Assembly: GCF_003258595.1 (NCBI RefSeq)
Contig: NZ_QHHQ01000001.1
Coordinates: 930,001-994,000, forward strand
DNA from: Acuticoccus sediminis
GTDB taxonomy: Bacteria > Pseudomonadota > Alphaproteobacteria > Rhizobiales > Amorphaceae
Direction of reading: 5' to 3'
DNA: 64,000 nucleotides
How positions within the stretch are numbered: the first letter of the stretch is position 1; the number at the start of each line of letters is the position of its first letter. This document shows, in pieces, positions 3,471-17,063 of the stretch. A model generated the notes under the pieces. It was not told where the DNA came from. It ran no database searches and saw only the letters and a program-made list of their open reading frames with translations. The translations under genes and the position numbers were made by a program.

Positions 3471-4379
3471 GTGTCCACCGATGCCTCCGGCGGCCTTAAG
3501 GCCGGCCTCGACGCGCGCCTCCTGGGATGGGCCTGCCTGATGGTCACGGCCTTCGGCTGGGGCCTCGGCTGGCCGATGATCAAGATCATCATGGAGGACT
3601 GGCCGCCGCTGTTCGCGCGCGGCACGGCCGGTCTCGCCGCCGCAGCGGGGCTCCTCGCCGTCGGAGCGATGCGAGGCGACGCGATCGCGCCGCCGCCGGG
3701 CTCGTGGCGGCAGCTGGGCCTCGCGTCCTTCACCAGCGTCTTCGCCTGGATGGGGCTGACGGCGCTGTCGCTCCTGTGGCTGCGTGTGGCCGAATGCGCG
3801 CTGATCACCTTCACGATGCCGATCTGGGCGACGCTCTTAGCCTGGCCGGTCCTCGGGCAGCGCCCGGACCTGCGGAACTGGCTCGCCATCGCGCTCGGCA
3901 GCGGCGGACTGCTGGTGCTGTTCGGGGCGCGCACCGAGGGGGCGGCGGACCAGCTCCCTGGCATCGCGCTGGCGCTGACGGCGGCGATCCTGTTCGCGCT
4001 CGGCTCCGTCGCGTTCCGCCGCCCCGTCGCGCTGACGCCGCTGGTGCGCACCGGCTGGCTCATCGGGCTCGGCTCGGCGATGATGTTCCTCGCCGGACTG
4101 CTGGTGGCGCTGCCGGACCTCGGCGCGCTGACCTGGCGCGGCGCGGGCGCGCTCACGTACATGGCGCTCTTCCCGATGGCGCTCTGCTATCTCGCCTGGT
4201 TCGCGGCGGCGGCGCGCCTGCCGGTGGCGACGGCGTCGACCGGATTGCTGCTCATCCCGATCATCGGCGCGGTGTCGACCGCGGTGCTCCTCGGCGAGCC
4301 GCTGGGCCTGCGCGCCGCCGTCGCCTTCGCCCTCACGCTGGCGGGCGTCGCCATCGCGATGCGCGCGACGGCCGACTAG
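3471..4379 (+). CDS. EamA/DMT-family transporter (302 aa)
   Basis: An inner-membrane permease of the drug/metabolite transporter superfamily with about ten hydrophobic segments arranged as two EamA repeats of five helices. The GTG start at 3471 is chosen because GGAGG lies just upstream at about 3460 and the protein then begins right before the first helix (GWACLMVTAFGWGLGWP). The substrate is unknown. It may be co-transcribed with the upstream crotonase gene. Its TAG stop shares bases with the stop codon of the convergent ABC ATPase gene (CTAG at 4376-4379), leaving no intergenic space. Confidence 0.82.
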   Translation: MSTDASGGLKAGLDARLLGWACLMVTAFGWGLGWPMIKIIMEDWPPLFARGTAGLAAAAGLLAVGAMRGDAIAPPPGSWRQLGLASFTSVFAWMGLTALSLLWLRVAECALITFTMPIWATLLAWPVLGQRPDLRNWLAIALGSGGLLVLFGARTEGAADQLPGIALALTAAILFALGSVAFRRPVALTPLVRTGWLIGLGSAMMFLAGLLVALPDLGALTWRGAGALTYMALFPMALCYLAWFAAAARLPVATASTGLLLIPIIGAVSTAVLLGEPLGLRAAVAFALTLAGVAIAMRATAD

Positions 4380-5956
4380 ACGGCCATCGCCGGCGCCTGC
4401 ACCTCCCTGCGCCGTGCGAGGAGGCGGCGCGTCTCCGCGTGCCGGTCCGGAGCGTCGAGGGCGTCGGGAGCGAAGCGGTCGACCACCTCGCCGTGGTGCA
4501 TGACGATGATCTCGTCCGAGATCCAGCGCACGATGTCGATGTCGTGGCCGATGAAGGCCATCGCGAAACCGCGCTCGCGCTGAAGGCGCGCGAGGAGCGT
4601 CAGGATCTCCGCCTGCACGGTGGTGTCGAGGGCGGACACGACCTCGTCGCAGATGAGCACCTTCGGGTCGCACAGCAGCGCCCTCGCGATGCACACGCGC
4701 TGACGCTGGCCGCCGGAGAGCTGGTGCGGGTAGCGCCCGGCCATGCCGGCTTCGAGGCCGACGTCCTCCAGCGCGGCGCCGATCACCGCTGCGAGCCCGT
4801 CGCGGCGGCCGGCGAGGCGGAGCGGCTCGGCGAGCGCGCGGCCGACGGTGAGGCGAGGGTTGAGCGCACCTTGCGGATTCTGGAAGACGAACTGCACCGC
4901 GCGCCGGTCGCCGCGCGGCAGCGGCCCGCTCCCCGGCTCCAGGGTGGTGCCGAGGATGGTGACGCGCCCGCCGCTCGGCTGCTGCATGGCCGCGAGCGTC
5001 TGGGCGAAGGTGCTCTTTCCGGAGCCGGAGCGGCCGAGGATCCCCAGCGTGCGCCCGGCCGTCAGCGATGCGCTCACCCCGTGCACCACGCGGACCGGCC
5101 GCGTGAAGAGCTTGCCGCGAAAGGCGACGGCGACGCTCTGCGCCTCGGCGCGGACGGTGGCGTCGGACGGCGCGACGGGCCGCGGCCGGTCCAGCATCCG
5201 GCGCGCGTCGACGAGGCGGCGGGTGTAGTCCTGCCGCGGTGCGCCGAGGACGGCGCCGGCCGGGCCGCTCTCAACGACGCGGCCGGCGCGCATCACGGCG
5301 ACCGCGTCGGCGTCCGCCGCGAGACCGAGGTCGTGGCTGATCATGACGAGCGCCATCCCGTGGCTGCCGCGCAGGCGCGTCAGCAGGGCGACGATCTCGA
5401 CGGTGGTGGTCGGGTCGAGCGCGCTGGTCGGCTCGTCGGCGACCAGAAGCTGCGGCTCGCCGGAGAGGGCCATCGCGATCATCACGCGCTGCTGCTGGCC
5501 GCCGGAGAGCTCGTGCGGGTAGCGCCGGGCGATCGCCGCTTCCAGCTCCACCTCGGCCAGCAGCGACAGGATGCGCTGCCGCCGCGCATCGCCTCCACGC
5601 ATGCCGGCGCGGCCGAGCGCTTCGGCAAGCTGGCTCTCGACGCGCATGAACGGGTTCAGGGACGCCATCGGGTCCTGGAAGATCATGCCGATCCGCCGGC
5701 CGCGCAGCGCGCGCATGGCCCCGGCGTCGTCGAGCGGCAGGGGCGCGCCGTCGAACGCGACGGTGCCGTGGGTGACGGCGAGCCCGCGCGGCAGCAGGCC
5801 GGTGACGGCGAGCGCCAGCGTGGACTTGCCCGACCCCGACTCGCCGACGATGGCGAGCGTGCCGCCGGCCGGAACGCCGAGCGAGACGTCCTCGACGATG
5901 GGGCGCGTGCCCGCGCACACCGTGAGGCCGTGGGTGGCGAGGATCGGCAGGGTCAT
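4376..5956 (-). CDS. Peptide-type ABC transporter, fused double ATPase (526 aa)
   Basis: A cytoplasmic ATPase with two complete nucleotide-binding domains in one chain, equivalent to DppD plus DppF. Domain 1 has Walker A GESGSGKST near residue 36 and signature LSGGQQQRV. Domain 2, from about residue 270, has Walker A GRSGSGKST and signature LSGGQRQRV. Both have intact Walker B aspartates (LLVADEPTSALD, LICDEVVSALD). Its ATG at 5956 overlaps the TGA of the upstream permease gene (ATGA), so it is the last gene of the six-gene operon starting at 11831. With the two permeases and the binding protein it forms a complete importer, probably for a phosphonate-containing compound given the operon context. 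Confidence 0.93.
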   Translation of the reverse strand: MTLPILATHGLTVCAGTRPIVEDVSLGVPAGGTLAIVGESGSGKSTLALAVTGLLPRGLAVTHGTVAFDGAPLPLDDAGAMRALRGRRIGMIFQDPMASLNPFMRVESQLAEALGRAGMRGGDARRQRILSLLAEVELEAAIARRYPHELSGGQQQRVMIAMALSGEPQLLVADEPTSALDPTTTVEIVALLTRLRGSHGMALVMISHDLGLAADADAVAVMRAGRVVESGPAGAVLGAPRQDYTRRLVDARRMLDRPRPVAPSDATVRAEAQSVAVAFRGKLFTRPVRVVHGVSASLTAGRTLGILGRSGSGKSTFAQTLAAMQQPSGGRVTILGTTLEPGSGPLPRGDRRAVQFVFQNPQGALNPRLTVGRALAEPLRLAGRRDGLAAVIGAALEDVGLEAGMAGRYPHQLSGGQRQRVCIARALLCDPKVLICDEVVSALDTTVQAEILTLLARLQRERGFAMAFIGHDIDIVRWISDEIIVMHHGEVVDRFAPDALDAPDRHAETRRLLARRREVQAPAMAV

Positions 5957-6864
5957 CGTGAAAGCCTCGGGTCGACGGCGCGATGGATGATGTCGATGAC
6001 CGCGTTGATCACCACCAGTGCCACCGCGACGACGGTGATGGCCGCCTGCACCACCGGGTAGTCGCGGCCGTGGATGGCGTTCAGCATCAGGCTGCCGATA
6101 CCCGGCAGGCTGAAGAGGATCTCCATCGTGAGTGTCCCCGCGACAAGCCCGGCAAGCACCAGGCCGGACAGGGCGAGCGCCACCGGCAGTGCGGTCGGCA
6201 GGAGGTGGAAGAAGGCGATGCGCGGGCGCCCGAGGCCCTTGGCGTAGGCGGTGCGCACGTGGGCGGACGTCGCCGCCTCGCGCAACTCCTCGAAGAGGGG
6301 TTTGCCGATCTGGCCTGCGTTGTCGATGGCGATGATGACGATGGGCATCGCCAGCGCGCCGACGACCGGCAGCCACCCGAGCCACACCGAGAAGACGAGG
6401 ATCGCCACCACGCCGACGCAGAAGGTCGGCAGCGCGATGGACCAGACGTTGACGAGGTTGACGAGTCTCGCCAGCACGCGGTTGCCCGTCACCGCCGCCG
6501 ACACCGCGAGCCCCAGCGCGACGAGGAGCCCGAGCAGGAAGGAGCCGGCGGCCAGCGCGAGCGTCGTCGGCAGCGCCGTCGCCAGCATGCCCGCCACCGG
6601 GCGGTGGTAGCGCAGCGACTCGCCGAAGTCGCCCGTCAGCGCGTTGCCGGCCCAGGTGGCGAGATCGACGACGAGGGGGCGGTCGAGGCCCATCTCGTGG
6701 CGCAGCTCGGCCTCCTCGTGTGCGGTGAGGCCGCCCTCGAGGGCCATGCGGTCGACCGCGTCGCCCGGCGCGACACGGCAGAGCAGGAAGACCACGAGGA
6801 CGATGCCGGCGGCCTGCAGAAGCATGCGCGCCAGCGAGAGGAGGATCGCCCCGGCCTGCCTCAT
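5953..6864 (-). CDS. Peptide-type ABC transporter permease, DppB-like (303 aa)
   Basis: An inner-membrane permease of the DppB/OppB class with an N-terminal membrane helix, a periplasmic loop containing a typical GLDRPL...GDFGES pattern and about five further helices. The EAA loop that contacts the ATPase is around TAYAKGLGRPRIAFFHLLP. Start and stop both overlap neighbouring genes by four bases (ATGA), giving tight translational coupling with the second permease upstream and the ATPase downstream. Confidence 0.92.
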   Translation of the reverse strand: MRQAGAILLSLARMLLQAAGIVLVVFLLCRVAPGDAVDRMALEGGLTAHEEAELRHEMGLDRPLVVDLATWAGNALTGDFGESLRYHRPVAGMLATALPTTLALAAGSFLLGLLVALGLAVSAAVTGNRVLARLVNLVNVWSIALPTFCVGVVAILVFSVWLGWLPVVGALAMPIVIIAIDNAGQIGKPLFEELREAATSAHVRTAYAKGLGRPRIAFFHLLPTALPVALALSGLVLAGLVAGTLTMEILFSLPGIGSLMLNAIHGRDYPVVQAAITVVAVALVVINAVIDIIHRAVDPRLSR

Positions 6865-7736
6865 CGTGCCGCCCCCGACCGGGCGCGCAGCGGGTCGAAC
6901 CGCTCGCGAAGCGCGTCGCCGAGGACGAGGAGGCTCACCGTCAGCGCGATGAGGGCGAGGATCGGCGCCAGGATCGCGTGCGGCGACACTTCGAGGTAGC
7001 GGCTCGCGTCGGAGATCATGCGGCCCCAGGTCGGCGCGTCGGGGGAGGAGCCGAGGCCGAGGAAGGAGAGCACCGACTCGGTCACGATGCAGCGCGGCAG
7101 GATGATCGCCGCCTGCGTGATCAGGCTGCCGAAGAGGTTGGGCAGGATGTGGAGCCGCAGCACGTGCAGCCGCCCGCCGCCGAAGAGGCCGGCGACGCGG
7201 ACATAGTCCTGCGCCGCCTCGCGCTTGTAGGTGGCGCGGGCGACGTAGGCGAAGAACGGCGCGAAGGAGATGCCGAGCGCCAGCGTCACCGGTCCCGTCC
7301 CCTCGCCGACGGCGACGATGATGAGGAGGGCGAGGAGGATGCCCGGCACCGCGCGCACGAGGTCGATGAAGGCGAACACCGCCATCTCGCCCCACCGGCC
7401 GAGCGCCATGCCGAGGAGGCCCAGCGCTCCGCCGAGCAGGAAGGCGACCAGCGTGCCGCCGGCGCCTACCATCAGGGTCAGCCGCGCGCCCATGACGAGG
7501 CGGGAGAAGACGTCGCGGCCGATGTGGTCGGTGCCGAGGAGATGCTCTCCCCCCGGCGCCGCGTTGAGGCTGAAGAGGTCCTGGTCGAAGGGATCGTGCG
7601 TTGCGATCCACGGCGCGAACACCGCGGTGAGCACGATCGCGAGGACGACCGCCCCCGCGATACGGGCGGGCGTGAGGACGCCGGCTCTGCGGCGCCTCCC
7701 GGCCTTGTCCCCGATGGCTTCCATCGCGAGGGCCAT
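6861..7736 (-). CDS. Peptide-type ABC transporter permease, DppC-like (291 aa)
   Basis: The second permease of the importer, DppC/OppC class. It has the family-typical N-terminal helix followed by APWIATHDPFDQD and LLGTDHIGRDVFSRL, then five more helices and an EAA loop near QDYVRVAGLFGG...HILPN. The start at 7736 is preceded by GAGGA; an in-frame ATG at 7724 is also possible. The binding-protein gene ends 5 bp before this start, and the stop overlaps the next permease start. Confidence 0.92.
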   Translation of the reverse strand: MALAMEAIGDKAGRRRRAGVLTPARIAGAVVLAIVLTAVFAPWIATHDPFDQDLFSLNAAPGGEHLLGTDHIGRDVFSRLVMGARLTLMVGAGGTLVAFLLGGALGLLGMALGRWGEMAVFAFIDLVRAVPGILLALLIIVAVGEGTGPVTLALGISFAPFFAYVARATYKREAAQDYVRVAGLFGGGRLHVLRLHILPNLFGSLITQAAIILPRCIVTESVLSFLGLGSSPDAPTWGRMISDASRYLEVSPHAILAPILALIALTVSLLVLGDALRERFDPLRARSGAAR

Positions 7737-7741
7737 CGGGC

Positions 7742-9301
7742 TCAGTCCTCGGCGAGGAAGGTCTGGGCGATGCCGCCGGACGCCCAGTTCGGCGACCACG
7801 TGAAGCCCGGCTCGTAGCCCTTCACGGCCCGGCGCATGGCGATCGCGTTCGGCGCGTGGCCGAGCACCATCAGGTAGTCGTTGTCGAGGACGCGCTGGAA
7901 GGCCTCGGAGTAGAGCGCCTTGCGCTTCGCCTCGTCGGTCTCGGCGACGGCGGCCTTGATGACGGCGTCGAGCTCGGGGTCCTGGATACCGCCCCACAGG
8001 ACCGGGTTGGGACCGTCGCTCATCAGCCGCACGAAGCGCAGGAAGATGTCGGCGCGCGGGCCGGAGGCCATCACGTCCATGTCCCAGTCGTACTGGCCGA
8101 GGCGGTTCTGCGCGCCGAGGTCGTCGAGCGCGGAGTGCTCCACCTTGAAGCCGAGCCGGCGCAGCATCTGGACGACGACCTGCGGGTAGTTTTCCTGCCA
8201 GGAGACGAGGTCGATCGTGACCTCGGACGGGTCGACGCCGGCATCGGCGAGCATCGCCTTCGCCTTGTCGAGGTCGGCGGCCTTGTACTTGTCCGCCTCG
8301 GCGATCGCCTCGTCGTAATAGACGTGGCCGGGCATCACCATCTGGTTGGAGACGACGCCGGTTTCCGGCGCCAGGAACTGCATGAAGGCGCGCTTGTCGA
8401 TCGCATGCATGATCGCCTCGCGGACCTTCGGGTTGTCGAAGGGCGGGCGCGGATTGCGGTTGTTGAAGGCGACGAAGTACCAGGTCGAGTCCTTCAGCGT
8501 CGTCGTGCGCAGGTTCGGGTCCTGCGACAGGCGGCGGGCGACGTCACGGTCGACGTTGACGATGTCGAGGTCGCCGGCGCGCAGGGCGTTGCCCTTGTCG
8601 ATGTCCTCGCGGAGGTTGACCTCGACGGCCGCGAGGTACGGCATGCCCTCGCCGCGCCAGTAGTTCTCGAACGCCGGGGCCGTGAGGGAGACCTGCGGGC
8701 GCCACTCGCCGAAGGTGAACGGGCCGGTGCCGATCGGGGTCTGGATCGTCGCGTCCCAGCCCGGCGAGGCGGGGGAGAGGATCCAGAGCTCCGACATCAG
8801 GTTCACGAGCGGCGCATAGGGCTCGGTCATGGTCAGGACGACCGTGCCCTCGTCCGCGGCCTCGACGCTCTCGACGAGCTTCATCGCGGAGGCGAGCCAG
8901 CCGCCCGTCACGTTCTCCTTCACACGGTGGATGTTGGCGACGACGGCGTCGGCGGTGAGCGGGTCGCCGTTGTGGAAGGTGACGCCGTCACGCAGGCGGA
9001 AGGTGTAGGTCCTGCCGTCCTCGGAGATGTCCCAGCCCTCGGCGAGGAAGGGCTCGACGCGGCCGTCCGGGCCGATGGAGGTCAGCGCCTCGGCGTAGAG
9101 CTGCTGCACGGCGATGGAGCCGGTGTGGCGGTGCGGGTCGGAGGTGTCGAGGCCCAGCGTCGCGTAGCGCAGCGTGCCGCCGTGGACGGGCTCGGGGGAC
9201 TGGGCGAACGCCGGGGCGGCGGCGAAGAGGGCCGCCGCCGCGGTGCCGAGCATGAGCTGCCGGCGGTCGAGACGGAAGCGCGTCTGCGTCATGTGCGTCA
9301 T
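7742..9301 (-). CDS. ABC transporter substrate-binding protein, peptide/nickel class (519 aa)
   Basis: A periplasmic binding protein of solute-binding family 5 (OppA/DppA class). The N-terminus carries a twin-arginine-like DRRQLMLG followed by a hydrophobic stretch and a cleavage site at about AFAQS, so export is probably through Tat. Family landmarks are present: GGTLRYATLG, LAEGWDISEDGRTYTFRLRD, GTGPFTF and FNNRNPRPPFDNPKVREAI. It starts at 9301 behind GGAG and overlaps the stop of the phosphodiesterase gene upstream. Linkage to two phosphonate/phosphodiester hydrolases suggests a phosphorus-containing ligand, which is inference. Confidence 0.92.
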   Translation of the reverse strand: MTHMTQTRFRLDRRQLMLGTAAAALFAAAPAFAQSPEPVHGGTLRYATLGLDTSDPHRHTGSIAVQQLYAEALTSIGPDGRVEPFLAEGWDISEDGRTYTFRLRDGVTFHNGDPLTADAVVANIHRVKENVTGGWLASAMKLVESVEAADEGTVVLTMTEPYAPLVNLMSELWILSPASPGWDATIQTPIGTGPFTFGEWRPQVSLTAPAFENYWRGEGMPYLAAVEVNLREDIDKGNALRAGDLDIVNVDRDVARRLSQDPNLRTTTLKDSTWYFVAFNNRNPRPPFDNPKVREAIMHAIDKRAFMQFLAPETGVVSNQMVMPGHVYYDEAIAEADKYKAADLDKAKAMLADAGVDPSEVTIDLVSWQENYPQVVVQMLRRLGFKVEHSALDDLGAQNRLGQYDWDMDVMASGPRADIFLRFVRLMSDGPNPVLWGGIQDPELDAVIKAAVAETDEAKRKALYSEAFQRVLDNDYLMVLGHAPNAIAMRRAVKGYEPGFTWSPNWASGGIAQTFLAED

Positions 9302-10569
9302 GGCCGTTGATCTCCGTGGGGTTCCAGAGTGGCGAGGAGGTCCCGCCCATCGAGGCCCTCGTGGGGGACGCCGAGATGGGTGAGGATGGTGGGGGCGAGG
9401 TCGACGATGGAGGTCGGCTCGCCGGAGCGGATGCCGGGGCGGTGGCCGCGCCCGCGGATCATGAGGACCGGCGACTGCTCGTAGCGGCCGAGACCGCCGT
9501 GCTGGCCGCAGCCGAGCCGGTCGGGCTTGCCGCCGGCGGGCCTCGCCGCGGCGCTGGTGCCGGGGACCCCGTAGGTGTTGGGCGCATCGCTCGCCGCCAT
9601 GGACACGGCGATGGCGAGACCGCCCGTGGGGGCCTGCCCGATCTCCGCGAGCTGGTCGCCGGCGAGGACGGTGCCGGACCAGGGCGCCGCGGCGATGGCG
9701 TCGGCGATGGCGCTGACGCGGTCGGCCGCCTCCGGGGCGACGTAGACGAGCGCGCCGGTGCCGTTGGGGGCGACCACGACGTCCGCGCCCCCCTCCCGCT
9801 TCAGCCCGGCGGCGACGAGGTAGGCGTCGATGTCGACGACCTCGCCGACGGTCTGGTGCCCGTGGTCGGAGCCGACGACGAGGAGGGTGTCCTCGTCCAG
9901 CCTGTCGATGGCGGCGAGGACGCAGCCGGCGATGGCGTCCGCCTCCGCGAGCACGGCGAGGTGCTCCGGGGAACCGAGCGGCGTCGCGTGCTGCGTCGTG
10001 TCCGGCTCGGAAAGCCAGAGGACCGAGAGCGCGGCGGCGCCGTGGACCGCCTCGGCGACGAAGCGCTCGGCCATCGCCCTGTCGCCCTCGATGCCGAGGG
10101 TGACGTCGAGCGGTTTCGCGACCGGGGCGAGGCCGGGGGCGTGCGAGCCGGCGCGGTGGTAGACGGTGCCGTATCCGTCCGGGTCGTGGGCGTAGGCCGC
10201 GCCGGGCGAGACGTTGTTGAAGACGACCACGCCGCCCCGGTCCTTGAGGCGCTCGGCCATCGTGGGGCGGTGGAGGGCGGAGCCGGTGAGGGCCCGCTTG
10301 GCCGCGAAGAAGTCCGGCCTGCCGACGTCGTGGAGAGTCAGCGCCCCGTCCTTCACCAGCGCGACGGTGTTGCCCTGGAGGCCGTTGCGCGCCGGGTAGC
10401 ACCCGGTCGAGAAGGCAGCCGACACCACCCGCGTCGCCGACGGGAAGACCGAGCGGTGGGCGGTGAAGGTCGTCGCGCCGGCGGCGAAGCGGGTGAGGTT
10501 GGGCGTCGTCTCCGGCGAGACGAGGTCCCGCCGAAGTCCGTCGAGGATGACGACGAAGGCGCGGGTCAC
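9298..10569 (-). CDS. Alkaline phosphatase superfamily phosphodiesterase/pyrophosphatase (423 aa)
   Basis: A type I phosphodiesterase/nucleotide pyrophosphatase-like member of the alkaline phosphatase superfamily. The complete two-metal site can be assigned: Asp10 (VILDG), the probable nucleophile Thr46 (PSATR), Asp190 and His194 (SEPDTTQH), Asp235 and His236 (GSDHGH) and His357 (CGQHGG). There is no signal peptide, so it should act in the cytoplasm. It starts with GTG at 10569 overlapping the TGA of phnA (GTGA), and its own stop overlaps the start of the binding-protein gene. A likely role is to hydrolyse an imported phosphodiester or phosphonate monoester before PhnA acts. Nucleotide pyrophosphatase activity is the alternative. 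Confidence 0.85.
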   Translation of the reverse strand: MTRAFVVILDGLRRDLVSPETTPNLTRFAAGATTFTAHRSVFPSATRVVSAAFSTGCYPARNGLQGNTVALVKDGALTLHDVGRPDFFAAKRALTGSALHRPTMAERLKDRGGVVVFNNVSPGAAYAHDPDGYGTVYHRAGSHAPGLAPVAKPLDVTLGIEGDRAMAERFVAEAVHGAAALSVLWLSEPDTTQHATPLGSPEHLAVLAEADAIAGCVLAAIDRLDEDTLLVVGSDHGHQTVGEVVDIDAYLVAAGLKREGGADVVVAPNGTGALVYVAPEAADRVSAIADAIAAAPWSGTVLAGDQLAEIGQAPTGGLAIAVSMAASDAPNTYGVPGTSAAARPAGGKPDRLGCGQHGGLGRYEQSPVLMIRGRGHRPGIRSGEPTSIVDLAPTILTHLGVPHEGLDGRDLLATLEPHGDQRP

Positions 10570-11831
10570 TGGACCGTCCCGTTGAGCGCGAAGTCGAAGA
10601 TGTCGAAGTTGCGCAGCGTCCGGGTCGCGGCCGCCTCCCGGTAGGCCTCGTTGAGGGGATGGGAGAGGACGAACGGCACCGTCTGCTCGGCGAGCCCGCC
10701 GTGCGAGCGGAGCCGCGCGCCTGCGAGCGCGGAGAGGTCGTGGTCCGCCGCGTGCGCGCCGAGCGCCCAGCCGTGCGCGCCGATCGCGACGACGTCGCCC
10801 TCGCGTTCAGGCGGCATCTCGAAGCGGGCGGCGGCCTCGGCCCCCGTCAGCGCCTCGCCGACGCCCTCGATGGCGGCGACGGCCCGGTGGACGTCCTCCG
10901 CGGCGAGGCCCGGGTCCGTCACGTGGACGCGCACGAAGCCGCCGAGCGCACCGTGATGGCGCACGAACGGGTCGGTGATGGGGCAGATCACCCGCGTGGC
11001 GCCGCCGCCGAACGCCGCGTCGAGCGTGTCGGCGATGTAGGCGACGCGGGGCGCGCCGGCGGCGTCGGTCATGTCGTTCATGCCGTGGTCGGCGACGATG
11101 CCGACGACCGCGCCCGCTGCCAGCAGCCGGCCGACGCGCTCGTCCACCGCGGCCATGAAGGCGTTCGCCTCGGGCGTGCCGGGGGCGTGGGCGTGCTGGA
11201 TGAGGTCCGAGAGGGAGAGGTAGGCGATGTCGACCATCCCATCGCCGATCAGCCTCACGCCGGCGTCGAGCACGAAGAGGGAGAGGTCGGGGACGTACGG
11301 CTCGGGCGCGGCGCGGCCGACGAGGCGGGTGGCGTCGTCGATGCCGTTCTCGGCGAGGGTGGCGGCGTCGGCGCGCTCGGCGGAGAAGGCGATGCCGGTG
11401 AGGTCCCGGGCGAGCGCCTTGAGGAGCTTGTCCTTCGCCGTCACGGCCGCGACCCGCGCGCCCTTCCGGGCCAGCGCGGCGAGGATCGTGCCGGCGCGCA
11501 TCCCCTCGGCGTCCAGCATCATGACCTCGCGGCCAGTCGCCGCGTCGAAATAGTAGTTGCCCGATATGCCGTGCACCGCCGGCGGCGCGCCGGTGACGAT
11601 GGAGACGTTGTTGGGGTTGGTGAACGTCGGCATCGCGGCGAGGGCGGTCGCGGCGAAGCCGCCGTCCATCATGGCCGAGAGGTGGGGCACGACACCCGCG
11701 GCGCGGGCGGCTTCGACATAGGCCGGGTCGCAGCCGTCGTAGCAGATCACCGCGGTCGGGCGGCGCGGCAGGGCGTAGCTGCGGCCGTTGGCGACGGCGA
11801 CGTCGGGTGCGCCGTTCAGTGCGGGAGCCAT
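10566..11831 (-). CDS. phnA: Phosphonoacetate hydrolase (421 aa)
   Basis: This enzyme cleaves the C-P bond of phosphonoacetate to acetate and phosphate using two zinc ions. Recognition rests on family-specific stretches: PTAVICYDGCDPAYVEA, MPTFTNPNNVSIVTGAPPAV, VTAKDKLLKAL, ADHGMNDMTD and ITDPFVRHHGALGGF. All seven expected metal or nucleophile positions are present: Asp32, Thr71, Asp209, His213, Asp248, His249, His377. The ATG at 11831 follows GGAGGA and gives a normal length; longer in-frame extensions run into the promoter. It is the first gene of the six-gene operon and is divergent from a LysR regulator, an arrangement also known for phnA in Pseudomonas. No PhnW/PhnY homologue is nearby. 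Confidence 0.92.
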   Translation of the reverse strand: MAPALNGAPDVAVANGRSYALPRRPTAVICYDGCDPAYVEAARAAGVVPHLSAMMDGGFAATALAAMPTFTNPNNVSIVTGAPPAVHGISGNYYFDAATGREVMMLDAEGMRAGTILAALARKGARVAAVTAKDKLLKALARDLTGIAFSAERADAATLAENGIDDATRLVGRAAPEPYVPDLSLFVLDAGVRLIGDGMVDIAYLSLSDLIQHAHAPGTPEANAFMAAVDERVGRLLAAGAVVGIVADHGMNDMTDAAGAPRVAYIADTLDAAFGGGATRVICPITDPFVRHHGALGGFVRVHVTDPGLAAEDVHRAVAAIEGVGEALTGAEAAARFEMPPEREGDVVAIGAHGWALGAHAADHDLSALAGARLRSHGGLAEQTVPFVLSHPLNEAYREAAATRTLRNFDIFDFALNGTVQ

Positions 11832-11997: not shown

Positions 11998-11999
11998 AT
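11981..11999 (+). promoter_or_regulatory. Inverted repeat overlapping the lysR start codon
   Basis: ATGTGA (11981-11986) and TCACAT (11994-11999) form perfect arms around seven bases. The right arm includes the first bases of the regulator's ATG. A protein bound here would block translation initiation or transcription of the regulator, so autoregulation is plausible. Confidence 0.35.
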
Positions 12000-12891
12000 G
12001 ACAAAACGACGACTTCCGCCGATCAAATCATTAATTGCACTTGAAAGCGTGGTCCGGACGGGGAGCGTGTCCGCGGCGGCGGAGGACTTGTCCGTGACGC
12101 ATGGTGCCGTGAGCAAGCAACTCGCGCATCTGGAACAGTGGATCGGCATGCCGATGTTCCGCGAGCGGCGCCGCGGCATGATCGCCAATGCCGCCGGCGA
12201 GCGCCTGGCCGCCGCCGTCGGCGGCGCGCTGGAGGAGATCGAGGACGCGCTCGACGCCATCCTCGTCGCCGAGCGGCAGAAGGTGCTGACCGTCGTCGCC
12301 CCGGCGACCTTCGCGATGCGCTGGCTGATCCCGCATCTCCCGGCGCTGGAGATGGACGGCGGCGAGGCCGGCATCCGCGTCCGCCCCACGCACACGACCG
12401 AGGACTGGGACGCGCTGGAGTTCGACCTCGTGGTGCGGCGGGGCGAGCCGCTCGCCGGACGCCTCGCGCCCCGGCCGCTGTTCGTCGAGGCGCTCGGCCT
12501 CTTGGTGCCGCCGGCGCTGGCGGACGTCGCCGACACGCGGCAGCTCCCCTTCGTCGACGCGGCCACCCGCACCGGCGAACTCGCCCGCTGGTGCCAGCGC
12601 GCGTACGGCGGTCCGCCCGTCAGGCCGGCCAGGGTCTACCCGCACTTCTACGTGGCGATGGAGGCCGCGCTCGCAGGGCTCGGCGCGATCGTCGCCCCGG
12701 TGGAGCTGCTCGGGCCGCAGCTCGCGCAGGGGGCGCTCATCGACCCGCTGCCGGCCGTCCGCGTGCCGGGCGCGGCCTATACCATCGGCGTCGCCCCGGA
12801 CGGGCCGAACCGCTCGGCCGCCGAGGGGCTTGCACGGACCATGGTGCGCGAGTGGCACAAGGTCCCTGCCGCCGTGCCCGTCACGCCGTAG
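11998..12891 (+). CDS. LysR-family transcriptional regulator (297 aa)
   Basis: The N-terminal winged helix-turn-helix (residues 1-65: LIALESVVRTGSVSAAAEDL, VSKQLAHLE) and a C-terminal periplasmic-binding-like effector domain (from about 90, VLTVVAPATFAMRWLIPHL) mark a GcvA-like LysR regulator. It is divergent from phnA with repeated ATCAAAC-type half-sites in between, so it most likely activates the phosphonate operon in response to an organophosphonate. A LysR regulator next to phnA is known in Pseudomonas fluorescens. The start has no strong ribosome-binding site, consistent with low expression. Confidence 0.88.
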   Translation: MTKRRLPPIKSLIALESVVRTGSVSAAAEDLSVTHGAVSKQLAHLEQWIGMPMFRERRRGMIANAAGERLAAAVGGALEEIEDALDAILVAERQKVLTVVAPATFAMRWLIPHLPALEMDGGEAGIRVRPTHTTEDWDALEFDLVVRRGEPLAGRLAPRPLFVEALGLLVPPALADVADTRQLPFVDAATRTGELARWCQRAYGGPPVRPARVYPHFYVAMEAALAGLGAIVAPVELLGPQLAQGALIDPLPAVRVPGAAYTIGVAPDGPNRSAAEGLARTMVREWHKVPAAVPVTP

Positions 12892-13088: not shown

Positions 13089-15392
13089 TCAGGCGCGGCG
13101 CTGTTCTTCCTCCTGGTTGAGGATCTGCTCGGCCGCGGCGGCCGCTGCCTGCTGCTGGTCGGCCGGCGCGTCGGGCGGGTCGATCCGCACCGTGACGTAG
13201 CGGTGCGCGAACTGGATGCCCTCGCGGTCGAAGAGCTCGCCGATCCGCGTGTAGACGTGGCGCCGCACGACGAACTGGTCGCCCGGCTTGGTCATGAACT
13301 TCACGCGGATGATCATCGCCGAGTCTTCCATCTCGATGACGCCCTGCGACTTCAGCGGCGCCAGGAAGAGCGGCCCGCACTCGGGATCCTCCAGCAGCTC
13401 CTGGCCGAGTTTCTTGATCAGCTTGCGGACCCGCTCGACGTCGGTGCCGTAGGGGATGCGCAAGGGGAGCTTCATCACCACCCAGTCTCGCGAATAGTTG
13501 GTGAGCTGCTTGATCTCGCCGAAGGGGATGGTGTGCAGGGGCCCGTTCTGGTGGCGGAGCTGGAAGGAGCGGATGGAGATCTTCTCGACCGCCCCCATCA
13601 CGCCGCCGACGTCGATGAACTCGCCCTTGCGGAAGGCGTCGTCGGCGAGGAAGAACGCGCCGGAGAAGACGTCGCGGATGAGCGTCTGCGCGCCGAAGCC
13701 GATGGCGAGGCCGAGGACGCCGGCACCCGCGAAGAGCGGCGCGACGTTCACCCCCATCGCCGCGAGCGCGATCGTCAGCATCAGCGTGAACATGGCGGCG
13801 ATCAGGATGTTGCGCAGCAGCGGCAGCAGCGTCGCGAGGCGTGATGAGCCCGGCCCCATTCCGTCCTCGCTGTCGCCGTGTCCGACGGCCGGCATCTCGT
13901 CCCGCATCCGGCCGTCGATCCACGTGCGCATCGCATCGTAGACGCCCCATACGGCGAAGAGGATGACGACGTAGCCGAGGGTCTGCGTGAGATCGTGGTC
14001 GAGCTTCAGGACACCGAGCGAGACCACGAGCACGACGATCGCGACCACGATCGCGGCGAGCCCCGCGAGGCGCCGGAAGAGCGCGTGCCAGCGCGCCTGC
14101 CATACGAGGAGCGGTTCGACCTCTGCCTCCGTCGGACCGCTCGGCGGGGCGGCGGCGAGCGGCGCTTCGCCCGGCGGGGCGGGCGGCAGCGGCGCGTCGT
14201 CGGCGGCCGCGAGCGCATCGGCGGGCCTGATCGTGGCGCGCAGCGTGTTCTCCAGCGCGGCGAACCGGCGGGACAGGACGATGACGCACGCGCCGTAGAT
14301 CGATAGCCCGACGATGGCCGCCAGGATGGGCGCCAGCAGCGGCCCGGCGTGCGGATTGTTGGTCGTGACGACCTGGCTGATGTGCGCGGCGCCGGCGATC
14401 ACGAGGTAGCCGAGAACGATGAACGCCCAGATCGAGCCGAGGAACTTGCGGAACGTGTTCGGGCGCGGCGATGTCCCCCGGATCATCGCGGTGATGACCC
14501 GGCGGTGGATGATCAGCCAGATGCAGAGAAGCGTGATCGGCACGGCCGAGGCGAGGATCTGGAGCGCGTCGGTGGAGCGCTCGTCGACGCCGATCTCGTT
14601 GGTCCACAGCGCGAGGCCGAAGAACGCGAAGCCGGTCGCCGCCATCACCTTGAAGGCCCGCAGCATCCTCGCGGCCGTCGCGTCGTCGACCGGCAGCAGC
14701 CTGATCGTGGGCCGGCTCGGCATGAACACCGCCGTCATCAGGGCGATGGTGATCCGGTAGGCGGTGATCGCGACGAGGATGATCGCCGCCGTCGCGCGCG
14801 CCGGCCCGGGCGTCGGCACGAAGACGACGATCACCGCGATGCCGGAGAGCAGGAAGGCGGCCGCCGCCGCCATCGCGAGCAGTGTCCGCAGCATCGCGTA
14901 GCTGGTGCGGGGCGCGGGGACCGCTTCGGCCCGCGCTTCCAGCGAGGCGAGCACGCGGCTGGCCCAGCGCCAGACGAGCCATCCGACGATGGAGCCGACG
15001 GCGAGGGCGATCAGGGTCAGGGGGATTGCGAGCCAGAGCCAGCCGGCCGACCCGTCGCCCCGGGCGGTCAGCACCGCATGGCCGATGGCGCCGGGGATCT
15101 CCGGGATCCGGCTGATCGTCTGGGCGAGGCCGTGGCGGACGGCCACCGCGCTCTCGAGCGCCGCGCTGGGGGAGGCCGCGGTGCCCGGCGAGCCGGCCGT
15201 GGCTGCCGGTTGCGTGCGTCCGTCGATCAGGATGGTGGCCCCGCTGTCGCGGGCCGCCTTCACCAGTTCGTCGAGAGTCGGGGAGGGGGTGGTCCCGCCG
15301 TCCGGCTGCGCGAGAGCGCCGCCGGCGAACGAGAGGACCAAGGCGAAGGCGAGGGCGAGGCCACCCCAGCTCCATGCTCGACGTGACAACAT
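13089..15392 (-). CDS. Large MscS-family mechanosensitive channel (767 aa)
   Basis: An inner-membrane channel of the extended MscS type (as in MscK/YbdG/YjeP-like proteins). It has a probable signal peptide at 1-30 (ending GGALAQPDG), a periplasmic segment, about ten membrane helices and a cytoplasmic proline/alanine-rich loop near residue 410. The MscS core follows, with pore helix GAGVLGLAIGFGAQTLIRD and the beta domain (GEFIDVGGVMGAVEKISIR). The C-terminal alpha/beta domain ends in an alanine/glutamine-rich tail. It relieves turgor by opening under membrane tension. The start at 15392 gives an N-terminal hydrophobic export signal; a longer frame upstream is unlikely. It is divergent from the RTX protein gene at 15687. 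Confidence 0.9.
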   Translation of the reverse strand: MLSRRAWSWGGLALAFALVLSFAGGALAQPDGGTTPSPTLDELVKAARDSGATILIDGRTQPAATAGSPGTAASPSAALESAVAVRHGLAQTISRIPEIPGAIGHAVLTARGDGSAGWLWLAIPLTLIALAVGSIVGWLVWRWASRVLASLEARAEAVPAPRTSYAMLRTLLAMAAAAAFLLSGIAVIVVFVPTPGPARATAAIILVAITAYRITIALMTAVFMPSRPTIRLLPVDDATAARMLRAFKVMAATGFAFFGLALWTNEIGVDERSTDALQILASAVPITLLCIWLIIHRRVITAMIRGTSPRPNTFRKFLGSIWAFIVLGYLVIAGAAHISQVVTTNNPHAGPLLAPILAAIVGLSIYGACVIVLSRRFAALENTLRATIRPADALAAADDAPLPPAPPGEAPLAAAPPSGPTEAEVEPLLVWQARWHALFRRLAGLAAIVVAIVVLVVSLGVLKLDHDLTQTLGYVVILFAVWGVYDAMRTWIDGRMRDEMPAVGHGDSEDGMGPGSSRLATLLPLLRNILIAAMFTLMLTIALAAMGVNVAPLFAGAGVLGLAIGFGAQTLIRDVFSGAFFLADDAFRKGEFIDVGGVMGAVEKISIRSFQLRHQNGPLHTIPFGEIKQLTNYSRDWVVMKLPLRIPYGTDVERVRKLIKKLGQELLEDPECGPLFLAPLKSQGVIEMEDSAMIIRVKFMTKPGDQFVVRRHVYTRIGELFDREGIQFAHRYVTVRIDPPDAPADQQQAAAAAAEQILNQEEEQRRA

Positions 15393-15686
15393 CGCGATCG
15401 TGTCCCCTTCCGGCACATCTGTGTCCGTGGTGCGATCATGATTGATCGCCGCCAGTACAACAATGCTGCGCGTGCCACACCGCTGATGAATTGGACGAAT
15501 CCCTGTATCCGGGGAAAGCAAACGTTCGCGGGCGAAGTCCCCGGAAATCAGTGGACGAACGGAGTCCTACAAAAATTGTAATGCAGGCGCGCTGCGTCGT
15601 GTGGCAGGTCTTGGCGACGTCTGAGCGTGATCCAGTCTGAAATCGGCTGGCCACAAGTGCAACATATTGCAATCTGGGGAGTGCCC
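15393..15686. promoter_or_regulatory. Divergent intergenic region with nested repeats, upstream of RTX gene
   Basis: The 294-bp gap holds several ordered repeats. TGGACGAA occurs at 15492-15499 and again at 15552-15559, exactly 60 bp apart. Between them CCGGGGA (15509-15515) pairs with TCCCCGG (15538-15544), and inside this TTCGC/GCGAA (15525-15536) forms a second hairpin. Just downstream TACAAaaaTTGTA (15568-15580) is a 13-bp palindrome. GGGGAG at about 15676 is the ribosome-binding site of the RTX gene. No clear sigma-70 promoter was identified. Confidence 0.4.
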
Positions 15687-17063
15687 ATGTCGACAGGACT
15701 CGATCTGAAGACGGTCACCGTAAAAATCAGCAACAATTTCTTCGGTCCGAACTTCGTCGCAGGCTTGGCGTTGCAGTCGTCGAGCTACACCGTCGTCAAT
15801 AAGAATTTGGCGACGTTGGAATTTCAGGCCGCCTACGACCCGTCGATGACCATCGTCCAGGAGGTGCACGGGACCGGATTCGGCTTCGACGAGAACGGCC
15901 GGTACACCGGTCACGTCACGCACTGGAACGCCTACGACAAGGACAATCCGGAGAACGGGTGGTCCTTCTCGCCGCTGGACAATTCGCTGGACCGGCAGAA
16001 CGAGCTCGCCGCCAACCCGAACGTGACGTTCCAGAACCTGCTGGTGATCCCGCTCGTCTACAACTTCGTCGGCGCGCAGTACGACGACTTCTACATCTTC
16101 GGCTCGTTCGACGACATCGGCCGCGGGTTCGAGGGCAACGACGAGTACAAGACGCTCGACGGTGACGACACCCTCTACGGCCACAGCGGCGACGACACGC
16201 TGATCGGCGGCAACGGCGACGACCTCCTCTACGGCGGTCAGGACGACGACGCGATCCGTGGCGGGCAGGGCCGGGACACGCTCTACGGCAGCCAGGGCGA
16301 CGACCGCATCAACGGCGGCACCGAGTCCGACCTGATCGGCGGCGGGGCCGGCTCCGACACCATCTTCGGTGACGACGGCGACGACGTCATCGAGGGCAAC
16401 GGCGCCTTCGACCGGATCAACGGCGGCAACGGCAACGACCTGATCTTCGGCGGCGGCGGCGGCGACAGCCTGCTGGGCGATGCCGACGCCGACACGATCG
16501 AGGGCGGCGACGGCAACGACTCGATCTACGGCGGCACCGAAGGCGACAGCCTCCTCGGCGACGCCGGCAACGACACCATCCGCGGCAATGCCGACGACGA
16601 TACGGTGCGCGGCGGCAGCGGCGACGACCTGATCCGAGGCGATGCCGGCGTGGACTTCCTGTTCGGCGACGCCGGCAACGACACCGTCCTCGGCGATGCC
16701 GATACCGACCAGGTGTTCGGCAACCGCGGCGACGACCAGGTCCACTCGGGCACCGGCGCGGACTTCATCGTCGGCGGCCTCGGCGACGATACCCTCTGGG
16801 GCAACGCGTCGGGCGGCGCCGGCGACTACGACATCGACTCGTTCATCTTCGAGGGGCCGTTCGGCAACGACGTCGTGGCGGACTTCGAGATCGGCTTCGA
16901 CGGCATCAACTTCATCGGCGTGCCCGAGGACGATGTCGTGACCACCACGGTGGGCGACGATGTCCTCATCACCGCCGACCTCGGCGATCTCGGGATCAGC
17001 ACCGTCCTCGTCGTCGGCGTGGCGGACCTGTTCAATCCGGACTCCGACATCCTGTTCGCCTGA
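15687..17063 (+). CDS. RTX calcium-binding protein (458 aa)
   Basis: An acidic protein with no signal peptide. Residues 1-150 form an N-terminal domain with the pattern GTGFGFDENGRYTGHVTHW. About residues 155-370 are tandem nonapeptide repeats of the GGxGxDxUx type (for example GHSGDDTLIGGNGDDLLYGG), which bind calcium in a parallel beta roll. A C-terminal domain (DVVADFEIGFDGINFIG) resembles the secretion-signal region of type I exported RTX proteins. The start at 15687 follows GGGGAG. Its position at the edge of an exopolysaccharide cluster suggests a matrix or surface role. The needed type I exporter is not in the window. No enzymatic domain is recognised. Confidence 0.85.
   Translation: MSTGLDLKTVTVKISNNFFGPNFVAGLALQSSSYTVVNKNLATLEFQAAYDPSMTIVQEVHGTGFGFDENGRYTGHVTHWNAYDKDNPENGWSFSPLDNSLDRQNELAANPNVTFQNLLVIPLVYNFVGAQYDDFYIFGSFDDIGRGFEGNDEYKTLDGDDTLYGHSGDDTLIGGNGDDLLYGGQDDDAIRGGQGRDTLYGSQGDDRINGGTESDLIGGGAGSDTIFGDDGDDVIEGNGAFDRINGGNGNDLIFGGGGGDSLLGDADADTIEGGDGNDSIYGGTEGDSLLGDAGNDTIRGNADDDTVRGGSGDDLIRGDAGVDFLFGDAGNDTVLGDADTDQVFGNRGDDQVHSGTGADFIVGGLGDDTLWGNASGGAGDYDIDSFIFEGPFGNDVVADFEIGFDGINFIGVPEDDVVTTTVGDDVLITADLGDLGISTVLVVGVADLFNPDSDILFA
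16150..16800 (+). repeat. Tandem 27-bp coding repeats (RTX nonapeptides)
   Basis: Imperfect 27-bp units rich in GGCGACGAC and ATCxxCGGCGGC encode the calcium-binding nonapeptides of the RTX protein. The repeats are in frame throughout and vary mainly at third positions, so they are old protein repeats, not a recent expansion. Confidence 0.8.

Follow-up and report, generated by a model that had tools for sequence, protein, structure and literature searches.

In the PhnWYA pathway for 2-aminoethylphosphonate, as known from Sinorhizobium meliloti, phosphonoacetate is formed by PhnW and PhnY, and the last step, with release of phosphate, is carried out by the phosphonoacetate hydrolase PhnA. The phnA region of Pseudomonas fluorescens 23F is under the LysR-type regulator PhnR and also contains transporter genes, and the available portions of its description name neither PhnY nor a phosphodiesterase (PMC10574752). 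A 64,000-nucleotide stretch of the genome of Acuticoccus sediminis (contig NZ_QHHQ01000001.1, positions 930,001 to 994,000; this whole stretch is hereafter the window) resembles these systems in having phnA, a divergent lysR gene and importer genes. It differs in that its phnA adjoins pde, a gene for a phosphodiesterase (PDE) of the nucleotide pyrophosphatase/phosphodiesterase (NPP) type, and in that no PhnY over the family cut-off is found in the genome. From the sequences we lean, with modest confidence, towards reading the operon as serving the catabolism of, and phosphate scavenging from, a phosphonoacetate conjugate esterified at phosphorus, the P-O ester of which would be opened by the PDE inside the cell. 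This reading builds on the gene content and its coupling, on recurrence in other genomes, on the presence of pde in place of phnY, and on the fold and active-site make-up of the PDE.

In a published survey of 1098 genomes from the Hyphomicrobiales and Rhodobacterales, phnY clustered with 121 of 145 phnA genes, and the sections of the report at hand give no explanation for the other 24 (PMC12366243). Uptake of a phosphorus diester followed by intracellular cleavage is known from the agrocinopine system, in which AccA, a relative of the binding protein of the window, imports the diester and the phosphodiesterase AccF cleaves it; its substrate is, however, a sugar phosphate diester, PhnA is not mentioned in the accessible text, and the two systems are likened here by function only (PMC7356202). 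Alkaline-phosphatase-like enzymes have been postulated to hydrolyse phosphonate esters in the case of marine polysaccharide esters (PMC5649143, in extract). Taken singly, PhnA, control by LysR and import of the Dpp type are already known, as is P-diester uptake with cleavage in the cell. Neither the phnA-pde pair nor a dedicated esterase feeding PhnA was found among the matches listed, as extracts, in the open-licence literature of PubMed Central.

Organization of the phnA-pde operon

All six genes are on the minus strand, between 4376 and 11831 (Table 1), and are coupled by four 4-base overlaps and one 5-base gap, the junctions being phnA/pde GTGA (-4), pde/binding protein gene ATGA (-4), binding protein gene/permC (+5), permC/permB ATGA (-4) and permB/ATPase gene ATGA (-4). 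This bears out the one-strand operon described in an earlier note on the window, which had listed the six genes correctly but overlooked the divergent lysR gene. As that note had also stated, the metal sites of both hydrolases are complete by residue check, their N-termini have no signal peptide by eye, and PhnW and PhnY are absent from the operon. A chance neighbourhood is rejected by the recurrence of the arrangement in other genera and by the PhnA tree, both described below.

Table 1. Genes and candidate regulatory site of the phnA-pde locus, in window coordinates
Feature	Position	Strand	Basis
phnA, phosphonoacetate hydrolase, 421 aa, first operon gene	10566..11831	-	TIGR02335, nearest structures, active-site residues
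pde, NPP-type alkaline-phosphatase-superfamily phosphodiesterase, 423 aa	9298..10569	-	PF01663, fold, invariant positions
Family-5 solute-binding protein, RR-containing leader, loop SGPRAD (R416)	7742..9301	-	PF00496 (SBP_bac_5) 252.1 bits
permC, DppC/OppC-type permease	6861..7736	-	PF00528 and OppC_N
permB, DppB/OppB-type permease	5953..6864	-	PF00528 95.4 bits
Fused double ABC ATPase, YejF-like arrangement, last operon gene	4376..5956	-	two PF00005 stretches
lysR, divergent GcvA-like LysR-type regulator	11998..12891	+	HTH_1 and LysR_substrate
Candidate LysR operator ATGTGA-N7-TCACAT, near-palindrome, overlaps lysR start codon	11981..11999	unstranded	

The window PhnA scores 570.2 bits against TIGR02335, passing the equivalog cut-off of 407.55, and its nearest solved structures, 1ei6 and 3szy, are both phosphonoacetate hydrolases. 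Its metal site (D32, T71, D209, H213, D248, H249, H377) and K133/K135 are invariant in 19 of 19 aligned PhnAs, and we take these two lysines to be the equivalents of the leaving-group lysines of PhnA. The latter are described as stabilizing the leaving group (PMC10574752, in part).

The genome of the window (G000; 7,759,911 bases in 44 contigs, 97.25% complete) has three matches to TIGR02335, of which one is over the cut-off. In this assembly, incomplete by the margin given, none of 14 profile matches to PhnY exceeds the cut-off (best 298.7 against 635.65 bits), and no PhnX does so either (best 55.2 against 220). There is one PhnW-like gene slightly under the cut-off (376.3 against 400.8). As no PhnY-dependent path leading from aminoethylphosphonate to phosphonoacetate was found in the genome, PhnA is probably fed differently. 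The genome may own another phosphonate route as well, since two genes for PhnJ of C-P lyase are over the cut-off (G000:C1:1362523-1363335 and C9:70965-71774).

Recurrence of the phnA-pde pair

A first scan of genome contigs with the PDE gave eight loci, four of which (Lutibaculum and three Bosea) have the full set of lysR and, divergently, phnA, pde, binding protein, permC, permB and ATPase genes; one of the other four has phnA-pde beside other importers and three have pde without phnA. Searches for the PDE covered a class sample of 385 genomes (22 with a match at E 1e-20), in which four first-look candidates per genome were scored, and an order sample of 199 genomes (20 with a match); neighbourhoods were scored against a panel of 30 proteins, taken in part from the window and in part from annotated regions of plasmids. 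In a phylum-wide search, 4 of 398 genomes had a match at E 1e-50, all in the class of the window, and Variovorax is the sole case seen outside the Alphaproteobacteria. The PDE orthologues were gathered by similarity, not at random, whereas the phnA genes counted below come from the samples.

At 19 of the 36 distinct PDE orthologues phnA lies within 8 kb, a count in which a missing neighbour may be due to truncation as some contigs are short. In all 19 the two genes directly adjoin in the order phnA then pde, with a gap of -8 to +3 bp by the start calls made here. At least three Dpp-type parts are found at 23 of the 36 loci (on the same strand in 21) and an amidase at 10; for the 19 phnA-adjacent loci these figures are 14 with a Dpp set and seven with an amidase. 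The Dpp set is near only one of 77 phnA loci that lack pde. The pair is therefore not confined to the genome of the window, occurring in other genera as well, and the earlier note was right to couple it with an importer, which usually accompanies it. The amidase, and the sub-lineage of pde-linked PhnAs described below, had been missed.

The importers themselves differ from locus to locus. In Rhizobium sp. 007 the pair is found with PhnDEC and an amidase, in Phyllobacterium and G148 with a Dpp set and an amidase, in L005 and L150 with Liv-type permeases and an amidase (L150 has in addition an SBP_bac_8-type set after pde), and in L152 and L156 with a TRAP importer. In Variovorax one gene run comprises an amidase, phnA, a PsrA-type alcohol dehydrogenase, phnY, a Dpp set, a second phosphodiesterase, pde, a porin, PhoD and an acetate-CoA ligase; phnA is here about 8.6 kb upstream of pde in the same run, and the locus is counted among the 17 orthologues without phnA inside 8 kb. 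That phnA and pde stay joined while the importers change suggests that the enzyme pair is the core of the system and that the imported conjugate varies.

Contexts and phylogeny of phnA

Searching with TIGR02335 at E 1e-60 gave matches in 44 of the 385 class-sample genomes and 42 of the 199 order-sample genomes; 40 of the latter 42 are over the family cut-off, and G454 (402.2 bits, with an adjacent pde) and G469 (398.1 bits) were retained. The class sample contains 46 phnA genes and the order sample 43; since the window gene is counted in both, 88 are distinct. With phnY counted as a neighbour at no less than 45% identity, within 3 kb and on the same strand, and pde as adjacent within 300 bp, phnY is near 67 of the 88 (34 class, 33 order) and pde is adjacent to 11 (3 class, 9 order). 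A single gene, that of L156, has both neighbours and 11 have neither, an exclusion with a Fisher p of 7.5e-7 when kinship is ignored; at the phnA loci without phnY, pde is adjacent in 10 of 21. The pair therefore occurs mostly where phnY is lacking, which lends support to the earlier note on the window, and the PDE appears to replace PhnY as the supplier of phosphonoacetate.

The PhnA tree (102 rows) agrees with this division. One branch, with an SH-aLRT support of 87, splits the 19 pde-linked from the 70 phnY-linked enzymes, and the label needs a single change against means of 17.4 and 17.5 after shuffling, with none of 500 shuffles as low; the 13 rows with neither label, some of them on the pde side, are uncounted. 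Two of the pde-linked enzymes, those of L152 and L156, are on long branches apart from the other 17. In a reduced tree of 69 rows to which 1ei6 and 3szy were added, the split is kept with a support of 92, and 3szy, from S. meliloti, groups with the phnY-linked rows. The P. fluorescens 23F enzyme (1ei6) falls outside the pde-linked ones, in which it differs from that of the window, and adjoins the PhnA of a Caballeronia locus having an MFS transporter and no pde. Adjoining the pde-linked lineage there is another PhnA sub-lineage (L113, L119, L124 and L097), which at the cut-offs applied lacks both pde and phnY. In L119 the genes after phnA encode an alcohol dehydrogenase of the phosphonate-associated HpnZ-like type, an aldehyde dehydrogenase and a TRAP permease.

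The PDE tree has 52 rows. The 20 that adjoin phnA, including one duplicate, all fall inside an orthologue clade of 37, within which the adjacency label needs six changes, so that adjacency to phnA has been gained or lost several times. None of 15 low-identity PDE paralogues is near phnA. The window genome itself has a second NPP-type gene, a paralogue of pde (L146; 32% identity) at G000:C2:394689-395939, with Dpp-type parts within 8 kb and no phnA. When orthologues are taken at 43% identity or more, PhnA is present in 10 of the 11 PDE-orthologue genomes of the class sample, compared with 44 of 385 overall (p 1.4e-9), and in 11 of the 13 of the order sample, compared with 42 of 199 (p 6.6e-7).

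The phosphodiesterase

The PDE matches PF01663 with 99.9 bits; in NCBIfam it has no match at E 1e-3. A structure model built from 31 sequences (mean pLDDT 95.5) has as its closest folds in the PDB those of ENPP5, ENPP6, Xac NPP and ENPP1 (E 1.8e-17 to 1.1e-16), the ENPP5 match having template modelling (TM) scores of 0.67/0.75. Among the best 50 fold matches listed, 49 are NPP-type chains and one is an alkaline phosphatase, at 11-18% identity, with neither a PhnA nor a PMH among them. The NPP fold places the enzyme in a diester-cleaving family.

The metal site is complete (D10, T46, D190, H194, D235, H236, H357) and invariant in 31 of 31 orthologues, as are R47, N67, S121, H138, R139 and D163, giving 13 checked positions in all. 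In the alignment with ENPP4, T46 and R47 fall on the Thr and Phe of the KTF motif, respectively, and N67 corresponds to the Asn that follows the Thr after 21 residues. In NPPs the aromatic residue after the nucleophile lines the nucleotide pocket. The PDE thus shares with the NPPs its fold, PF01663, the two-metal site, the Thr nucleophile and the Asn, but differs in the Arg that replaces Phe after the nucleophile (31 of 31), in the lack of a visible signal peptide and in its low identity to them. Such an NPP-like build, with a charged rather than aromatic pocket wall, would fit, without proving, a substrate in which an anionic head, for example phosphonoacetate, forms a P-O ester.

The phosphonate monoester hydrolases (PMH/PEH) of the alkaline phosphatase superfamily are likened to the PDE through the phosphonate mono-ester hydrolysis that we propose for it, and a profile search with the PDE gives weak matches to PMH (4upk, 2w8s) as well as to PhnA. 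The nucleophile of PMH is a modified Cys or Ser, and the invariant Thr46 of the NPP-type site (31 of 31) speaks against the PDE as a classical PMH. It is improbable, too, that the PDE is a second C-P hydrolase, that is, a diverged PhnA-like enzyme for 2-phosphonopropionate, 2-hydroxyphosphonoacetate or a similar compound. The two share a superfamily, and their profiles compare at 96.1% probability (E 3e-9) with the nucleophiles aligned. The lysines kept in all 19 PhnAs are, however, absent from the PDE, where K133/K135 align with S121 and a gap, and the fold matches listed above contain no PhnA.

PDE genes without phnA

Several observations tell against the PDE as an enzyme for phosphonoacetate esters. 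It retains the Thr and Asn of the NPPs, so that an ordinary phosphodiester is a possible substrate, and 17 of the 36 distinct orthologues have no phnA within 8 kb. Six genomes with an orthologue lack PhnA (G093, G545, G563 and the genomes of L006, L007 and L008), those of L006 and L007 being metagenome-assembled; the L007 contig ends about 1 kb past pde, and no phnA is found elsewhere in the L006-L008 genomes. The PDE family as a whole is accordingly not tied to phosphonoacetate. PhnA is also frequent in genomes that have low-identity paralogues only (5 of 11 in the class sample, 5 of 7 in the order sample), so that genome type partly explains the co-occurrence at genome level.

These points bear on the alternative of a general organophosphate unit, in which the PDE cuts an imported ordinary phosphodiester (a glycerophosphodiester, or a nucleotide or sugar phosphodiester) and PhnA is an independent scavenger sharing the operon and regulator. 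This we regard as unlikely, although the closest folds include the glycerophosphodiesterase ENPP6 besides ENPP5 and Xac NPP, at least three Dpp parts lie within 8 kb at 9 of the 17 PDE orthologues away from phnA, and the import and cleavage of agrocinopine, as outlined in the source, offer a precedent (PMC7356202). Against it, the pde-linked PhnAs separate from the phnY-linked ones, the coupling of phnA and pde outlasts the exchange of importers, and an invariant Arg follows the nucleophile where ENPP4 has Phe.

The loci without phnA have contexts of their own. The neighbours of pde in L006 encode a chaperonin and a DUF7700 protein. In L007 and L008 (Bradyrhizobium), genes for a Peripla_BP_6 binding protein, an amidase and the PDE lie in a row, in genomes in which no phnA was found, and these loci represent a related, PhnA-independent use of the PDE.

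Importer and binding protein

The importer of the window is of the Dpp/Opp type (family 5), having an SBP_bac_5 protein, two BPD_transp_1 permeases and two ATPase domains; the binding protein has, by eye, an RR-containing leader at its N-terminus. An importer of the PhnCDE type is not encoded in the operon, the matches to PhnE being only 32.1 and 30.1 bits against a cut-off of 216.7. For the fused ATPase the best NCBIfam model is YejF, at 411.6 bits under its cut-off of 834.

In DppA and OppA the Asp of a GDxGDP loop holds the amino group of the peptide. The loop SGPRAD of the window binding protein aligns with GDPDNF of 3tpa, and a GPR loop is present in 18 of 35 aligned family-5 binding proteins (two identical duplicates having been removed before counting) and in none of the remaining 17. 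The carriers are 16 members of the cassette group, 14 of them with phnA nearby plus L133 and L151, and the distant L169 and L174. As 16 of the 18 form one orthologous group and the two outside it resemble each other, the loop was rejected as independent proof. L169 and L174 belong to Dpp-type importers of Variovorax and Ensifer, encoded in clusters that combine phnA, phnY and an alcohol dehydrogenase gene.

An importer for nickel or a metallophore complex, linked to phnA-pde by co-regulation only, is very improbable. The halves of the fused ATPase do exceed the NikE (372.9 against 332.55) and NikD (366.2 against 318.7) cut-offs, and NikA is the NCBIfam model that the binding protein matches best, so that a metal ligand is conceivable, which counts against a phosphonate ligand. 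The models that best match the other parts are likewise of the nickel-type Opp/Nik group, all below cut-off, and a complete nickel importer is not seen, as NikA (143 against 393), NikB (175.3 against 447) and NikC (161.5 against 358.45) all fall short. Against nickel there is also the service of phnA-pde elsewhere by PhnDEC, Liv-type and TRAP importers, and the near absence of the Dpp set from phnA loci without pde (1 of 77).

The PDB hits of the window binding protein include chains of AccA. The earlier note had treated Dpp-type import as unusual for such a compound, which was overstated: AccA and AccF provide a precedent, as far as the source describes the scheme (PMC7356202), and the pair is accompanied by several other kinds of importer. 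The stronger view, that import of a phosphorus compound by a Dpp-type system is unprecedented, is refuted by the same scheme. The recurrent pair, the scarcity of phnY at its loci and the usual importer hold good from the earlier interpretation, and the oddity of the importer does not.

Regulation

A LysR homolog is in the same divergent position in all 14 phnA-pde-Dpp cassettes collected, that of the window included. Across 15 intergenic regions, again including the window, the 6-base arms of the candidate operator are exact in four, have one mismatch in four and two or more in seven. The palindrome was set aside as firm operator evidence because one mismatch at most is found in only 8 of 15, six of these being from the genus of the window or Bosea, and because it overlaps the start of lysR. 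By analogy with P. fluorescens 23F, the LysR protein is probably a PhnR-like activator inducing the operon on phosphonoacetate; the precedent of PhnR and the partly conserved palindrome both point to LysR control.

Proposed function

For the operon as a whole we infer a substrate, a direction of flow and a mode of regulation as follows. The family-5 binding protein and the Dpp-type importer would take up an intact phosphonoacetate conjugate. The PDE, which is predicted to be cytoplasmic as no signal peptide is seen, would then cut the P-O-R bond by means of Thr46 and the two-metal site to give R-OH and free phosphonoacetate. PhnA would cleave the C-P bond of the latter to acetate and phosphate, both of which would be used, and the divergent LysR protein would probably switch the operon on when phosphonoacetate is present, like PhnR of P. 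fluorescens 23F. Because amidases recur beside phnA-pde, we favour a conjugate that includes an amino-acid or amide moiety.

A candidate natural substrate that might fit is O-phosphonoacetic acid serine, a natural product of Streptomyces NRRL F-525 according to the portions of its description at hand (PMC12723261). A proposed intermediate towards it is a nucleoside-monophosphate ester of phosphonoacetate (PMC12288639, in extract). A further and more tentative suggestion, which we put forward as plausible rather than probable, is that PhnA is fed by an esterase step not described before, in which an NPP-family enzyme specialized for the P-ester of phosphonoacetate, with the carboxylate held on Arg47 and/or His138-Arg139, acts together with family-5 binding proteins having a GPR loop where peptide binders have their own loop, to take in and open intact conjugates.

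The same Streptomyces compounds bear on another reading, in which a foreign microbial phosphonate is imported and destroyed by the PDE and PhnA as a detoxification or in the handling of an antibiotic prodrug, nutrition being secondary. We give this little chance. In its favour, amidases recur, at 10 of the 36 PDE loci; phosphonoacetate inhibits viral DNA polymerases, and phosphonoacetate-derived products of Streptomyces are described in the sources as available (PMC12288639, PMC12723261). A dedicated importer, however, points to use rather than defence, and the run in Variovorax adds an acetate-CoA ligase, which is a nutritional step.

Should the operon serve a conjugate esterified at phosphorus, it would define a new way into the hydrolytic use of phosphonates with a gene marker of its own, and would suggest that phosphonoacetate occurs esterified in nature; the binding-protein group would in turn offer a means of finding the conjugates. 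If the specialized esterase is also real, esterified phosphonoacetate would be a true environmental nutrient for alphaproteobacteria.

Neighbouring genes

Beyond lysR the window has a gene on the minus strand (13089-15521) for a long membrane protein, which by eye has the look of an MscS-type mechanosensitive channel. There is also a plus-strand gene (15627-17063), the predicted protein of which has many GGxGxDxLx-type repeats of an RTX-like, calcium-binding kind, as read by eye from the translation.

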